Positions 6,755-11,711 of a DNA stretch of 64,000 nt are shown piece after piece. The notes beneath the pieces are model-generated. The model made no database searches. It saw only the letters and a program-made list of their open reading frames with translations, and was not told the DNA's origin. This stretch comes from Saccharopolyspora thermophila. Lineage in GTDB: Bacteria; Actinomycetota; Actinomycetes; Mycobacteriales; Pseudonocardiaceae. A program made the translations under genes and the position numbers. How positions within the stretch are numbered: position 1 is the stretch's first letter; each line of letters begins with the position of its first letter. Location of the stretch: contig NZ_BMMT01000001.1 of the NCBI RefSeq assembly GCF_014646075.1, positions 1-64,000 of the forward strand, read 5' to 3'.

Positions 6755-8017
6755 TCAGCGGTACAGCAGATACGGCTCGCGTTGCCGTTCGAAGTCGGCG
6801 ACGTCGTCCTGCCAGCTCTCGACGATCTCCGCGGCGTCGGCGCCCGCGTCGACCATCGTGCGCAGCCGGTCGGAGCCCGACAACCTGTCGATCATGTGGT
6901 CCGGTCGCCACCCGAAGACCTCCGGGAACAACCGGCGTGCGGTCACGATCATCGCCACCGCCGCATGGATCGCGTCGAACCGGCCGCTCGGGTGCAGCTG
7001 CACGCCCCCGCATGGCATGTTGGCGTGCTTGGAGAACGTCGGCACGAAGGAGACCTCGCGGAACCGCAGACCCTCGAGCCCGGCGGCGTTGAGCTCCTCC
7101 GCCCAGCGCCAGTCGATGCCGGGGGCGCCGATGATCTCGAACGGCCGCGTCGTGCCGCGGCCCTCGGACAGCAGCGTGCCCTCGAACAGGCCGGTACCCG
7201 GGTACACCGCGGCGGTGTCGGGCGTCGGCATGTTCGGGCTCGGCATCACCCACGGGGCGTCGGTGCCCGCGCTGCGCTCCCGCCACCCCTCCACCCGCAC
7301 GACGTCCAACTGCGGCAGCGGGCTCGGCAGGTACTCGCGGTCGAACATCCGCGCCAGCTCGCCGACGGTCATGCCGTGCTGCTGCACGATCGGCAGCAGG
7401 CCGACGCCGGAGCGGAAGCGCGGGTCCAGCCGGGGGCCGGCCACCTGGCCGCCGATGGGGTTCGGCCGGTCCAGCACCAGGAACGCCGCGCCGACCCGCT
7501 GGGCCGCCTCCATCGCGGTGTACATGGTCCAGATGTAGGTGTAGAAGCGGGCGCCCACATCGGCGATGTCGAACACCACCTGCTCGACGCCGGCCTTGCG
7601 GAACATCTCCGCCAGCTTCGCCGCGTCGGCCCCGTAGGCGTCGTACACCGGCAGCCCGGTGCGCGGATCGCGGTAGTCGCCTTCCGAACCGCCGGCCTGC
7701 GCGGTGCCACGGAACCCGTGCTCCGGGCCGAAAACGGCCACCACGTTCACCGAGCCGCTGTCGTGCATGGCGTCCACGACGTGCTCCAGCGACGCCAGCA
7801 CGCCCGTCGGGTTGGTCACCACCCCGATCCGGCGGTCGGTGATGTCCTGCCAGTTCCGCGCCGCCAGCACGTCCGCGCCGGTGCGCACCTGCGCGGCGGT
7901 GTCGGGGGTGCGGGGCGCGGCGCACGCGGCGCTGCTGCTCAGCCCCGCGGCCGACACGGCGAGGGCGGCCGAGGTGAGGAAGCGCCGTCGCGAGTGCCCG
8001 GTCACGGTCGTCCCCAC
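6755..8017 (-). CDS. namZ: Exo-beta-N-acetylmuramidase NamZ (DUF1343)
   Basis: A 420-residue DUF1343 protein, the family shown in Bacillus to release terminal MurNAc from peptidoglycan chains. It has GVVTNPTGV, the FGPEHGFRG loop bearing the conserved Glu, DIADVGARFYTYIWTM and VLDRPNPIGG. The N-terminus SRRRFLTSAALAVSAAG is a twin-arginine type signal, and a Cys after SSSAA may be a weak lipobox. Its start overlaps the end of nagZ by 16 bases, indicating translational coupling. The enzyme would act outside the cell on products of NagZ. Confidence 0.88.
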   Translation of the reverse strand: MGTTVTGHSRRRFLTSAALAVSAAGLSSSAACAAPRTPDTAAQVRTGADVLAARNWQDITDRRIGVVTNPTGVLASLEHVVDAMHDSGSVNVVAVFGPEHGFRGTAQAGGSEGDYRDPRTGLPVYDAYGADAAKLAEMFRKAGVEQVVFDIADVGARFYTYIWTMYTAMEAAQRVGAAFLVLDRPNPIGGQVAGPRLDPRFRSGVGLLPIVQQHGMTVGELARMFDREYLPSPLPQLDVVRVEGWRERSAGTDAPWVMPSPNMPTPDTAAVYPGTGLFEGTLLSEGRGTTRPFEIIGAPGIDWRWAEELNAAGLEGLRFREVSFVPTFSKHANMPCGGVQLHPSGRFDAIHAAVAMIVTARRLFPEVFGWRPDHMIDRLSGSDRLRTMVDAGADAAEIVESWQDDVADFERQREPYLLYR

Positions 8018-9789
8018 CCCAGTCCGTGGCCGAACGGGTACTTGTCGACGCCGGGCTGGTTGGGGTCGGGTACCGACACCGGCAGCTTGCCGACCGGCGC
8101 GATCTCGCCGAACAGCACCTTCGTCAGCGATTCCATGGCGACCGCCTTGTCCGAGTAGGTGGCCACCCAGGCGGGCAGATCCACGTGGGCGGCGTCGTAC
8201 GGTTCGCGGACGGCGACCGCCACGACCGGCTCGCCGGTCTGCTGCAGCGCGCGCAGCAGGTCGAGCTGGGTGGCGTTGTCCGGGTTCCAGGCGGCGTTGG
8301 TCAGCACCACCGTGACATCGTTGCGCCTGGCCTGCTCGACCGCCTGGTCGATCTGCTCCGGTGTCGGTTGCAGTCCGGTGGCCAGCGCGGACGTCTGCGG
8401 GCCGCGCGCCCGGATCTGCTCCGCCAGCGACGCGGTGGCCTTGTTCCCGGCCCCGGTGACGAACATCGTCGCCGGCGGCTTCAGCGGCAGTACGCCGTCG
8501 TTGCGCAGCACCGTGGTGGTGCGGTCGGTGATCCGCTGTGCCTCGGCGAGGTGCTCCGGGACGCCGACGATCTTGTCCACTTCGGAAACGTCGACGAACG
8601 GGTCGGCCAGCACGCCGCGGCTCGCCTTCAGGTTCAGGATCCGCGTCACGCTCTGGTCGATGCGCTGCTCGGTGAGCCGTCCGGTGTGCACCGCGTCGAC
8701 CACCGAGTCGATGGCCAGCTGCAGGTTGAACGGCATCAGCAGCATGTCCGCTCCGGCCTGGAGAGCGAGCACCGGAATCTCGGCGTCGGGGTGCTTCTGC
8801 CGCACGCCGTCCATCTTCAGCGAGTCGGTGACGATCACGCCCTGGTATCCCAGCTCCTCACGGAGCATCCCGGTCAGCACCCTGGGCGACAGCGTGGCCG
8901 GTTCGCCCGAGTCGTCGAGCTTGGGCATCACGATGTGCGCGCTCATCACCATGTCCGTCCCGGCGGCGATGGCCTCGCGGAACGGCGGCGCGTCCACCTG
9001 CTCCCACTGCTGGCGGTCGTGCTCGATCACCGGCAGGTCGGTGTGGCTGTCCTGGTGGGTGTCGCCGTGGCCGGGGAAGTGCTTCACCGATGCCGACACC
9101 CCCTCCGCCGGCTTGGCCGAGTCCTCGTAGCCGTGGATCTGCGCGGCGGTCAGCTGCGCGGCGAGCGCCGGGTCGGAGGAGAAGGAGCGCACTCCGATCA
9201 CCGGGTTCGCGGGATTGACGTTCACGTCGCCGCTGGGCGCGAAGTTCTGGTTGAGCCCCATCGCCCGCAGCTCCTGGCCGGTGATGGCGGCGGCCCGGTC
9301 GGCGTCCTCGGCGCTGCGACCGGCGCCGAGTGCCATGTTCCCCGGGAACTGCGTGGCGGGCTCGGGGATGCGGGTGACCTGCCCCTGCTCCTGGTCGGTG
9401 GAGATCAGCAGCGGTACCTTCGCGCCGGAGTTGATCGCGGCGTCCTGCAGGCCGTTGGACAGCTCGGCGATCTGCTTCGGGGTGTGCAGGCTGTCGGTCC
9501 AGGTGAAGTGGATGATGCCGCCGAGGTGGTACTTCTGCACCACCTGCGCCGGGGTGTCGACGCCGAACTCCTCCCGGTTCTTCGGGTGTGCCGAGTTGGC
9601 GGTGGGGCCGTAGGCGTAGGTGACGAACAGCTGCCCGACCTTCTCCTCCAACGTCATGTCCTGGAGCAGCTCGGCGGGGGAGAGCGATCGCGGGCCGGTG
9701 GCACCGCCCGTCGCGGTCAGCGCTGCGGCGCCGATGGCGACGGCACCCAGCGCGAGGGCGGCGCGGCGCGCGCGGGTCTTCAGGGCCAC
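8002..9789 (-). CDS. nagZ: Exported GH3 beta-N-acetylglucosaminidase
   Basis: A 595-residue glycoside hydrolase family 3 enzyme predicted to remove GlcNAc from muropeptides. Residues 236-249 carry the NagZ-specific loop KHFPGHGDTHQDSH, whose His/Asp dyad replaces a Glu as acid/base. The nucleophile is D322 in VTDSLKMDG. A second alpha/beta domain (about 430-595) follows, as in Bacillus NagZ and unlike the short cytosolic Gram-negative form. The N-terminal RARRAALALGAVAIGAAAL is a signal segment. It is the first gene of nagZ-namZ-amiE. A GGAGG-type site (CAAGGAGGCCCC) precedes the ATG. Confidence 0.92.
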   Translation of the reverse strand: MALKTRARRAALALGAVAIGAAALTATGGATGPRSLSPAELLQDMTLEEKVGQLFVTYAYGPTANSAHPKNREEFGVDTPAQVVQKYHLGGIIHFTWTDSLHTPKQIAELSNGLQDAAINSGAKVPLLISTDQEQGQVTRIPEPATQFPGNMALGAGRSAEDADRAAAITGQELRAMGLNQNFAPSGDVNVNPANPVIGVRSFSSDPALAAQLTAAQIHGYEDSAKPAEGVSASVKHFPGHGDTHQDSHTDLPVIEHDRQQWEQVDAPPFREAIAAGTDMVMSAHIVMPKLDDSGEPATLSPRVLTGMLREELGYQGVIVTDSLKMDGVRQKHPDAEIPVLALQAGADMLLMPFNLQLAIDSVVDAVHTGRLTEQRIDQSVTRILNLKASRGVLADPFVDVSEVDKIVGVPEHLAEAQRITDRTTTVLRNDGVLPLKPPATMFVTGAGNKATASLAEQIRARGPQTSALATGLQPTPEQIDQAVEQARRNDVTVVLTNAAWNPDNATQLDLLRALQQTGEPVVAVAVREPYDAAHVDLPAWVATYSDKAVAMESLTKVLFGEIAPVGKLPVSVPDPNQPGVDKYPFGHGLGWGRP

Positions 9790-9838
9790 GGGGCCTCCTT
9801 GCGGGGCGGGGACACCGCCCGGTAAAAAGTGTTCACCA

Positions 9839-9856
9839 CGAAATCGATCAATTTCG
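9839..9856. promoter_or_regulatory. Candidate operator upstream of nagZ
   Basis: An inverted repeat CGAAAT-N6-ATTTCG lies 50 bases ahead of nagZ in a short AT-rich patch of otherwise GC-rich DNA. Its size and place suit a dimeric regulator such as the nearby MurR, but no second copy was recognised upstream of murR, so the link is a guess. Confidence 0.4.
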
Positions 9857-9950
9857 GAAGCTACTCACGTCACCGGGGCAGGTCAACGCCGCCCACCGGC
9901 GCGGATGTGCGTGCATCGTCCCCGCTCGCCAGCACCGGCCCTGGACGTAC

Positions 9951-9985
9951 GGCGGCGCCCGCCGACCTTGTCGACGGGCGCCGCC
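9951..9985 (-). terminator. Strong hairpin ending the Ms1-like transcript
   Basis: GGCGGCGCCCG at 9951-9961 pairs perfectly with 9975-9985 around a 13-base loop. It would end a minus-strand RNA arriving from 10185. No T-run follows. Confidence 0.65.
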
Positions 9986-10185
9986 CTCGCGCGATGATCC
10001 GGGTTACCAAGCGTGCACTTGTGTCGTAACTTCCGGGCTAGGCGTCCGGCGTCCCGGTACGCAACCCCGTTTGACGACCAGCCTTGTGTGCGGCAACGCG
10101 TGGGTTCTCCGAACCTCGCGCACGGAGCCTGATCAGGGTGGATGCTACTTCTCCTCCGTAACATCCCTGGCCAACCAGGGTCCGC
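9951..10185 (-). ncRNA. Ms1-like (6S-like) regulatory RNA candidate
   Basis: The roughly 500-base gap behind the HAD gene has the signs of a non-coding transcript on the minus strand. A promoter-like TTGCAG (10215-10220), a 17-base spacer and TACAAA (10192-10197) would start RNA near 10185. The 5' part folds as CCCTGG-TTGG-CCAGGG. At 9951-9985 an 11-bp perfect hairpin can terminate it. The length would be about 235 nt. In M. tuberculosis the RNA-polymerase-binding RNA Ms1/MTS2823 lies at exactly this place, downstream of the HAD gene Rv3661 and on its strand. Synteny is the main argument; covariance was not tested. The ends are estimates. Confidence 0.6.
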
Positions 10186-10191
10186 ACCTCC

Positions 10192-10220
10192 TTTGTAGTC
10201 CGTGACGAGCATCACTGCAA
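10192..10220 (-). promoter_or_regulatory. Predicted promoter of the Ms1-like RNA
   Basis: Read on the minus strand: TTGCAG, 17 bases, TACAAA. Both hexamers are close to the housekeeping sigma consensus, which is uncommon in this GC-rich window. A start about 7 bases downstream gives an RNA beginning near GCGGACC. Confidence 0.5.
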
Positions 10221-10297
10221 GGGTTCCGGGTCGGCGGTTCGCGGCCCGCGCTCGCCAGCGGTTCCGCGATGTGTTTGGGGAAATGTGCCCGATCCGG

Positions 10298-11137
10298 TCA
10301 GTGGCGGCGGCGCCACGCGCGCAGGCCCCACCACGCGGCGCCGGCGGCCGCTACGGCGCCCATGCCGACCCCGGCGGCGGTGACCGCGGCCCGCGACGGC
10401 GTGGGGATGCGGGCGCGCAGGGACACCGGATGCTCGAAGGCCAGCGACGGCCAACCGCGCTGCGCTGCTTCCTTGCGTAGCCCCCGGTCCGGGTTGACGA
10501 CCGTGGGGTGGCCGACGCTCTCCAGCAGCGGCAGGTCGGTGATGGAGTCGGAGTAGGCGTGGCACTCGCTGAGGTCGTAGCCGTACTGCTCGGCCAGCTC
10601 GCGGGCGGCGATGGCCTTGTTCTCCGCGGAGCAGTAGAACTCGACCTCGCCGGTGTAGCGGCCGTCCACCACGACCATCCGGGTACCGAACCAGTGGTCC
10701 GCGCCGAGCAGCTTGGCGATGGGGGCCACCACCTCCTCGCCGGAGGCGGACAGCACCACGACGTCATGGCCCTGCTCCTTGTGCTCGGCGATGAGCTGGG
10801 TGGCCTCCTTGTAGACCAGCGGGTCGACGATGTCGTGCAGGGTCTCCTCGACGATCGCGTTCACCTGCTCGACGTCCCAACCGGTGCACAGCGAGGTGAT
10901 GTGGGCGCGCATCCGGTCCATCTGGTCGGCGTCGGCGCCGGCGAGCATGAACACGAACTGCGCGTAGGCGCTCTTCAACACGGCCCGCCGGTTGATCAGT
11001 CCTTCCTGGAAGAACGGTCGGCTGAAGGCCAGGGTGCTCGACTTGGCGATGACCGTCTTGTCCAGGTCGAAGAAGGCGGCCACCCGGCGTCCGGTGGCAA
11101 CCGATGGGTTCGCGGGCTCTGTCACGCCCGTCAGCAT
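10298..11137 (-). CDS. HAD-IB family phosphatase (SerB-like), membrane-tailed
   Basis: A 279-residue haloacid dehalogenase subclass IB protein. Motif I is FFDLDKTVI with D24 and D26, motif II lies in VVLSASGEE, and motif III/IV is AYSDSITDLPLLESVG. Residues about 248-275 are hydrophobic (AAGVGMGAVAAAGAAWWG) with an Arg-rich end, suggesting a C-terminal membrane anchor. It is the orthologue by context of M. tuberculosis Rv3661, divergent from ssd. Phosphoserine phosphatase activity is possible, but the substrate is unknown. An alternative GTG at 11125 would start at VTEPANP. Confidence 0.85.
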   Translation of the reverse strand: MLTGVTEPANPSVATGRRVAAFFDLDKTVIAKSSTLAFSRPFFQEGLINRRAVLKSAYAQFVFMLAGADADQMDRMRAHITSLCTGWDVEQVNAIVEETLHDIVDPLVYKEATQLIAEHKEQGHDVVVLSASGEEVVAPIAKLLGADHWFGTRMVVVDGRYTGEVEFYCSAENKAIAARELAEQYGYDLSECHAYSDSITDLPLLESVGHPTVVNPDRGLRKEAAQRGWPSLAFEHPVSLRARIPTPSRAAVTAAGVGMGAVAAAGAAWWGLRAWRRRH

Positions 11138-11343
11138 ACGAGCCGGGGTGGTGGTGCTGCGGGGTGCGCATTCGCGGGCTGATGCCGCACCGGGTTTTCA
11201 CGGTGCGTGCGGATGGCTGCCTCCATTTCGACCAGCGGAACGATTTACTTGACTCGAATGACTTCTTCCGGATGGGTGCGCGAGTGCTGAGTGCGAGAAT
11301 GTTCGCTCGAATGGACGTGGGGCGGTGCGGGGCTTCTGGGGGA

Positions 11344-11349
11344 TACAGT
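11344..11349 (+). promoter_or_regulatory. -10 element of the 6C RNA
   Basis: TACAGT in the context GGATACAGTG lies about 7 bases before the estimated 5' end of the 6C RNA. No clear -35 element is seen. Confidence 0.4.
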
Positions 11350-11354
11350 GAGGA

Positions 11355-11442
11355 CAGTCCGGTGCTGCCGGACGGGTTCAGCTCGACCCCCCGGAGCTGA
11401 ACTGCCGACGACCCCCGCCCCTCCCCCCTGGCGGGGGTCGTC
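11355..11442 (+). ncRNA. 6C RNA (B11-type actinobacterial sRNA)
   Basis: Two consecutive hairpins each expose six cytosines, the defining feature of the 6C motif. Hairpin one pairs GTTCAGCTC (11376-11384) with 11394-11402 around a loop with CCCCCC at 11387-11392. Hairpin two pairs 13 bases (11407-11419 with 11430-11442) around a loop with CCCCCC at 11423-11428 and would also terminate transcription. A small GTCCGG/CCGGAC hairpin precedes them. In M. tuberculosis the 6C RNA B11 lies between Rv3660c (ssd) and Rv3661 (HAD), on the ssd strand, as here. Mycobacterial work links it to C-loop pairing with G-rich mRNA starts. The 5' end is estimated. Confidence 0.88.
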
Positions 11443-11567
11443 CCATACCGGCGGTCGTGCCTGCGACGCGGGCGCCGGGTCCGGTCCGGCGTCCAGCGGA
11501 GCATTCGGCAACCGCGAGATGTGAATTCCTTTCTGTTTTGATTCGTAGCTCGTTCGAGTGGCGCGAG

Positions 11568-11595
11568 TTATCCACAGGCCGGGGGTTTGTCCACA
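11568..11595 (+). promoter_or_regulatory. Two DnaA-box matches upstream of ssd
   Basis: TTATCCACA (11568-11576) and TTGTCCACA (11587-11595) are perfect matches to the general and the high-GC actinobacterial DnaA boxes, 19 bases apart in the same orientation, about 120 bases before the ssd start. Confidence 0.5.
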
Positions 11596-11711
11596 GATTT
11601 CGATAAACGGGTTGGCGGCCGTCGGTCGCTCCGGCACCGTGTTTGTCGAGCACTCGCCCGTTTCGGTTGCTGAGCCTCGTTTTTCCCGCATTCCTGACCT
11701 CTGGAGGCGTC

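Follow-up and report, generated by a model that had tools for sequence, protein, structure and literature searches.

A probable Ms1 RNA gene downstream of a HAD-family hydrolase gene in Saccharopolyspora thermophila, with a candidate CRP-like dyad in its promoter

Introduction

Which element occupies the gap between two minus-strand genes of Saccharopolyspora thermophila, one for a HAD-family hydrolase (PF12710, 10298..11137) and one for a glycoside hydrolase of family 3 (8002..9789)? The gap lies in a 64,000-nucleotide stretch at the start of contig NZ_BMMT01000001.1, referred to here as the window, and a first-pass annotation made from the sequence alone had placed in it an RNA of the Ms1 type, about 235 nt long. 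The Ms1 of M. smegmatis associates with sigma-free core RNA polymerase, and binding drops when its central bubble is removed (PMC4191392); RNA polymerase binding is described for the RNAs of M. smegmatis, M. tuberculosis and S. coelicolor (PMC4191392, PMC11077062, PMC9130861), and more than 60% of the polymerase-bound reads map to Ms1 in RIP-seq of stationary M. smegmatis (PMC11077062). The M. tuberculosis counterpart, MTS2823, is reported to sit between Rv3661 and Rv3662c. The evidence assembled here indicates, with a probability of roughly 0.93, that the gap carries the Ms1 gene of a Saccharopolyspora species, an RNA of about 235 nt that presumably stores RNA polymerase core in stationary phase.

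Recognition of the RNA by covariance models

In a permissive scan, the Rfam Ms1 model RF02566 matched the minus strand at 9943-10185 over its full length (model positions 1-304) with 54.5 bits and E 2.5e-12, and this was the only Ms1 match in the 5.36-Mb genome, contrary to the outcome that the first-pass annotation had named as refuting, no structural match in the gap and a true Ms1 elsewhere. Together with the similarity of congeneric DNA, the match delimits an RNA gene of about 235 nt at 9951..10185 on the minus strand, its 5' end near 10185 and its 3' end near 9951. The covariance-model search thus gave a full-length hit, though one under the curated gathering cut-off of 162 bits, so that a default Rfam scan misses Ms1 here. 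That cut-off was reached by 2 of 20 related loci scanned, from Mycobacteroides (L047) and Nocardia (L041), and loci from Rhodococcus (L028), Williamsia (L027) and Tsukamurella (L063), one each, fell below it. Among ten Pseudonocardiaceae-type loci, eight matched RF02566 at E 2.1e-7 or better, and L015 and L017 gave no match at E 0.01.

A second model, R1, was built from 31 Pseudonocardiaceae-type RNAs alone. Their alignment, A1, holds 31 of 41 such sequences, the window included, and omits L003, L004 and L108 as duplicates of each other or of L107, L099, L109 and L116 as further congeners, L016 as a further Lentzea, L005 and L021, whose boundaries the extraction pattern did not catch and both of which R1 finds, and L017, in which no Ms1 was found. 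In a reciprocal test, R1 matched at full length all 19 loci hand-picked from 59 named Mycobacteriales, seven of them missed by a sequence-only profile, with E from 1.2e-17 to 1.2e-8; the Rhodococcus, Williamsia and Tsukamurella loci under the Rfam cut-off were likewise all found. Up to E 1, R1 had no match in Geodermatophilus L071, in L017 or at the weak second Rfam hits L100-L103. The sequence-only profile made from the 31 A1 rows reached 51 of 60 other named loci (Geodermatophilus L071 among them) at E <= 1e-3, and one made from the genus alone reached 24 of the 60 at the same threshold.

Two sets of weak matches were set aside: second Rfam Ms1 hits in G007, G009, G012 and G014 (E 2.4e-5 to 2.4e-4), which R1 does not confirm, are attributed to chance, as are seven further R1 matches with E 0.029 to 0.9, three of which fall on the window's plus strand.

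We think that the low Rfam score is no cause for concern, because relatives also miss the cut-off, R1 finds the Mycobacteriales loci in return and the fold carries compensatory changes. The Rfam match, R1, place and strand all agree with the original reading of an Ms1-like RNA at the syntenic locus downstream of the HAD gene, and the assignment of the minus-strand segment 10185-9951 as an Ms1 ortholog is supported.

A 6S RNA, which would bind the sigma-bearing holoenzyme, has a similar overall shape, and the S. coelicolor RNA at the same place was once proposed to be 6S (PMC9130861); some reads of that RNA, scr3559, also appear in HrdB RIP-seq samples (PMC11077062). Against this stand the permissive Rfam scan of 9800-11600, in which no 6S family matched up to E 5, and the immunoprecipitation results reported for the Streptomyces ortholog, which associated with core but not with HrdB or the HrdB holoenzyme (PMC9130861). 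A 6S identity is accordingly judged very improbable.

Locus and promoter

Ms1 lies directly downstream of the HAD gene on the same strand. The HAD protein is closest, among named relatives, to those of Saccharopolyspora spinosa (95% identity) and S. hirsuta (94%). On the other side of the HAD gene, at 11373..11446 on the plus strand, lies a 6C RNA (RF01066, 76.8 bits), the sole copy in the genome; 6C RNA is present in 17 of the 20 related loci scanned, and Mycobacteroides shows the same arrangement as the window, with Ms1 on one side of the HAD gene and 6C RNA on the other. Upstream of the glycoside hydrolase gene, at about 9858-9886 on the minus strand, a second promoter-like element, TTGACC...GTAGCTT, was also observed, and similar elements occur in L003, L004 and several Lentzea loci.

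The promoter described in the first-pass annotation, TTGCAG-N17-TACAAA, was found at 10192..10220 on the minus strand, and alignment to the Ms1 model puts the start of the RNA (+1) at about 10185. A generic sigma-70 scan did not flag TTGCAG-N17-TACAAA, because it requires the second hexamer to end in T. A composite promoter pattern, derived from the window itself and including the dyad treated below, has exactly one match in 18 of the 22 congeneric genomes, in every case beside Ms1, and reversed-pattern controls gave no match. The same promoter form and 17-nt spacing recur in the Mycobacteriales loci that were read.

Fold and anatomy of the RNA

Counted from +1 to position 9951, where the terminal hairpin ends, the RNA measures 235 nt, the length first suggested. 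Fold energy gave z scores of -6.5 and -7.2 (-7.2 for the 235-nt segment), and none of 200 shuffles was as stable. In the consensus fold, 14 of 42 pairs are changed on both sides, compared with 5.6 in shuffles, in 56 cells compared with 14.4, a comparison to be read knowing that the same alignment had served to predict the fold and that related rows can exceed shuffles; 96.6% of cells are paired, compared with 28-42% when the partners are slid.

The 5' domain is a long interrupted hairpin (helices 1-3, 10122..10185), in which 8 of 16 pairs are changed on both sides in at least one relative. The CCCTGG/CCAGGG hairpin proposed for this end can form in the window, but gained no backing from 31 relatives: none of its pairs has changed on both sides, 15 of the 31 keep the U-A pair, pairing holds in 83.3% of cells, and all 500 shuffles perform equally well by every measure. 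In the MFE fold of the window, five of the six letters of its left arm lie in the longer 5' hairpin, and it is this interrupted hairpin, 10185-10122, that is the supported 5' element.

Next, the consensus fold places the 5' arm of an outer stem (helices 4, 4b and 5) at 10097..10121. A central region is predicted to be open, with its 5' side, containing a mini-hairpin, at 10079..10096 and its 3' side at 10014..10022; part of it is paired in the window's own MFE fold. Between the two sides stands the apical stem (10023..10078), made of a GTCGT/ACGAC helix, an internal loop and helices 7-8, and resting on the consensus fold and covariation. The GTCGT/ACGAC helix occurs in 28 of the 31 A1 rows, and the three remaining rows carry GCCGT/ACGGC, GTCGG/CCGAC and GTCGG/TCGAC; this count was read from the rows, an automated check having given other pairings or the wrong segment in 8 of 31. 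Paired changes in this helix are GCCGT/ACGGC in L007 and GTCGG/CCGAC in L121. The 3' arm of the outer stem, at 9989..10013, overlaps GCACGCTTGGTA, which recurs in mycobacterial loci. A further helix, which pairs columns 80-84 with 202-206 and so joins the outer-stem blocks, shows two-sided changes in 26 cells compared with 8.3, while its two other measures do not rise above shuffles, 275 and 142 of 500 of which reach them.

The RNA would end at a terminator hairpin, 9951..9985. Its presence had been noted correctly, but not its length, given as 11 bp and amounting to 16 bp in the MFE fold. It has no T run and is for that reason missed by a terminator scan; relatives show inverted repeats, identified by eye, at the same position.

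The modelled fold thus recovers what is expected of an Ms1 RNA, a long stem with short hairpins near its ends and a central region predicted to be open, and the sequence adds what appear to be its own promoter and terminator. The RNAs of M. smegmatis (Ms1) and M. tuberculosis (MTS2823), both of RF02566, share with the RNA described here the place, the strand and the HAD neighbour, as well as the 5' hairpin, the outer stem, ACCCACGCG, GCACGCTTGGTA and the terminal hairpin, which in the window, in contrast to theirs, lacks the T run. The RNA of the window is also more compact than the family model: the match spans 243 nt for 304 model positions, and an apical block of 63 model positions corresponds to 10 nt.

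The same features bear on whether a free RNA exists at all. The segment lies between two genes of the same strand, its +1 (10185) 112 bp past the HAD stop codon (10298), and could belong to their mRNAs as a conserved 3' UTR or attenuator; it has, however, a conserved promoter and a terminal hairpin of its own, compensatory changes along its fold and a full-length match to a family of free RNAs, which leaves such an arrangement only a very small chance. A short protein, encoded by the 110-codon open frame at 9883-10215 on the minus strand, has a negligible probability, since the frame takes in some of the promoter as well as the RNA and its terminator, base pairs covary in the segment, and the same segment measures 202 to 210 nt across relatives in lengths that do not step in threes.

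A CRP-like dyad between the promoter hexamers

Between the hexamers of the Ms1 promoter lies a candidate regulatory site, the CRP-like dyad GTGA-N6-TCAC (10202..10215, minus strand), whose first G closes the -35 hexamer and whose remainder falls inside the spacer. The consensus of CRP sites is TGTGA-N6-TCACA, of which only the four bases GTGA and TCAC on either side fit, the window reading AGTGA...TCACG. Among distinct promoters read, the full dyad occurs in 13 of 23 of Pseudonocardiaceae type and 28 of 47 of Mycobacteriales, and the weaker GTG-N8-CAC in 21 of 23 and 35 of 47, respectively, counts in which the loci share ancestry and hence are not independent. The promoters read come from 32 of the 39 loci of Pseudonocardiaceae type and from 58 of the 59 of Mycobacteriales; outside the counts are six Lentzea loci with another -10 hexamer, L017 and L022. 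Fifteen Mycobacterium loci (L019, L020, L022-L024, L029, L030, L032, L033, L040, L043, L046, L050, L072 and L075) carry TCTAG or TCCAG in place of the right half of the dyad. In the class sample described below, the full dyad is present in 4 of 5 Ms1 promoters of the same order and, judged by eye over the 60 bases before each match, in none of 11 from other orders; it is therefore not a feature of all Ms1 genes.

The genome also encodes a close CRP ortholog, which matches end to end the M. tuberculosis-type CRP/FNR regulator of PDB 3h3u (E 6.3e-123), a protein that we take to be Rv3676, and the stretch ASRETVNKALADFAHRGW is identical between the two. Direct control of Ms1 by the cAMP receptor protein through this dyad, across Mycobacteriales and Pseudonocardiaceae, is a tentative and rather unlikely proposal drawn from the sequences. 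Under it, CRP bound to the dyad would block RNA polymerase during growth and would free the promoter on entry into stationary phase. Against such control, the bases beside the dyad core are poorly matched in Pseudonocardiaceae-type promoters, and another regulator, or RNA polymerase itself, could keep the dyad bases.

The Ms1 promoter is reportedly the subject of Sikova 2019, a work outside the literature searched here; in the portions of that literature covered, a CRP or cAMP link to Ms1 is not stated, and the dyad may already be known in print. According to a review citing Sikova 2019, a region from -491 to +9 contributes to the expression of Ms1 (PMC8628891). In the parts consulted, PMC4191392 mentions that LexA binds at the MTS2823 locus and leaves open the sigma factor and regulators of Ms1.

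Distribution and prior record

Within the genus, RF02566 gives matches in 18 of 22 genomes, all of them under the cut-off, and DNA similar to that of Ms1 is found in 21 of 22, the window's own included. R1 recovers Ms1 in three of the four congeneric genomes that the Rfam model missed. The remaining genome, G003, shows no Ms1 by the Rfam model, DNA similarity or R1, no close HAD gene (best 33%) and no 6C RNA; the whole Ms1/HAD/6C block is thus missing from it, by deletion or assembly gap.

Under strict filters, R1 found a match in 17 of 118 genomes sampled from the class, one of them the window's own, and none in G103 and G116, which belong to the same order as the window. Of 11 R1-positive genomes from other orders, five have a HAD ortholog (61-63%) just upstream on the same strand, G028 has one (64%) 1.3 kb upstream of the R1 match, G123 has one (64%) on the opposite strand at a distance of 3 kb, and the remaining four have distant HAD paralogs only. 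R1 matches with no close HAD ortholog found were observed in G076, G108 and G037, large genomes of one family, in which Ms1 may persist without its usual neighbour.

The idea that this locus extends Ms1 to a new lineage in a shorter form was anticipated by PMC9130861 (2022). Its Table 4 gives 27 Pseudonocardiaceae genera with predicted Ms1, Saccharopolyspora among them, from a search on the same synteny and at the resolution of genera, and the S. coelicolor RNA described there, Ms1/scr3559, resembles that of the window in length (~230 nt by Northern blot) and in lying beside a HAD gene (SCO3558), the comparison covering length and place. Ms1 in Saccharopolyspora is therefore already on record, and neither the lineage nor the short form is a first. 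For S. erythraea, about 300 transcribed intergenic regions are reported, and the Ms1 locus is not named among them in the part of PMC4008361 consulted.

Proposed function and significance

By analogy with its relatives, the RNA of about 235 nt would be driven by the primary-sigma-type promoter seen in the sequence and in relatives, and would end at the strong hairpin likewise seen in both. It would fold as a 5' hairpin followed by a long stem, as covariation suggests, interrupted by a central region predicted to be open. As in M. smegmatis and S. coelicolor, it would accumulate when growth ceases and associate with RNA polymerase core that carries no primary sigma factor, and the core enzyme stored in this way may be kept for regrowth.

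The sequence-only reading of the locus was correct, and the RNA falls in a published family, so that no claim of discovery is needed. The Rfam Ms1 cut-off, as it stands, leaves out 18 of 20 related loci and all 22 congeneric genomes. If CRP did act at the dyad, Mycobacterium loci without the right half-site would no longer have such a brake, and this might agree with the high level of MTS2823 reported during growth (PMC3207917), the M. tuberculosis promoter not being among those read. The promoter dyad gives an easy way to test what turns Ms1 on in stationary phase, and, were control by CRP true, the reserve of RNA polymerase in these bacteria would be tied to a nutrient signal.
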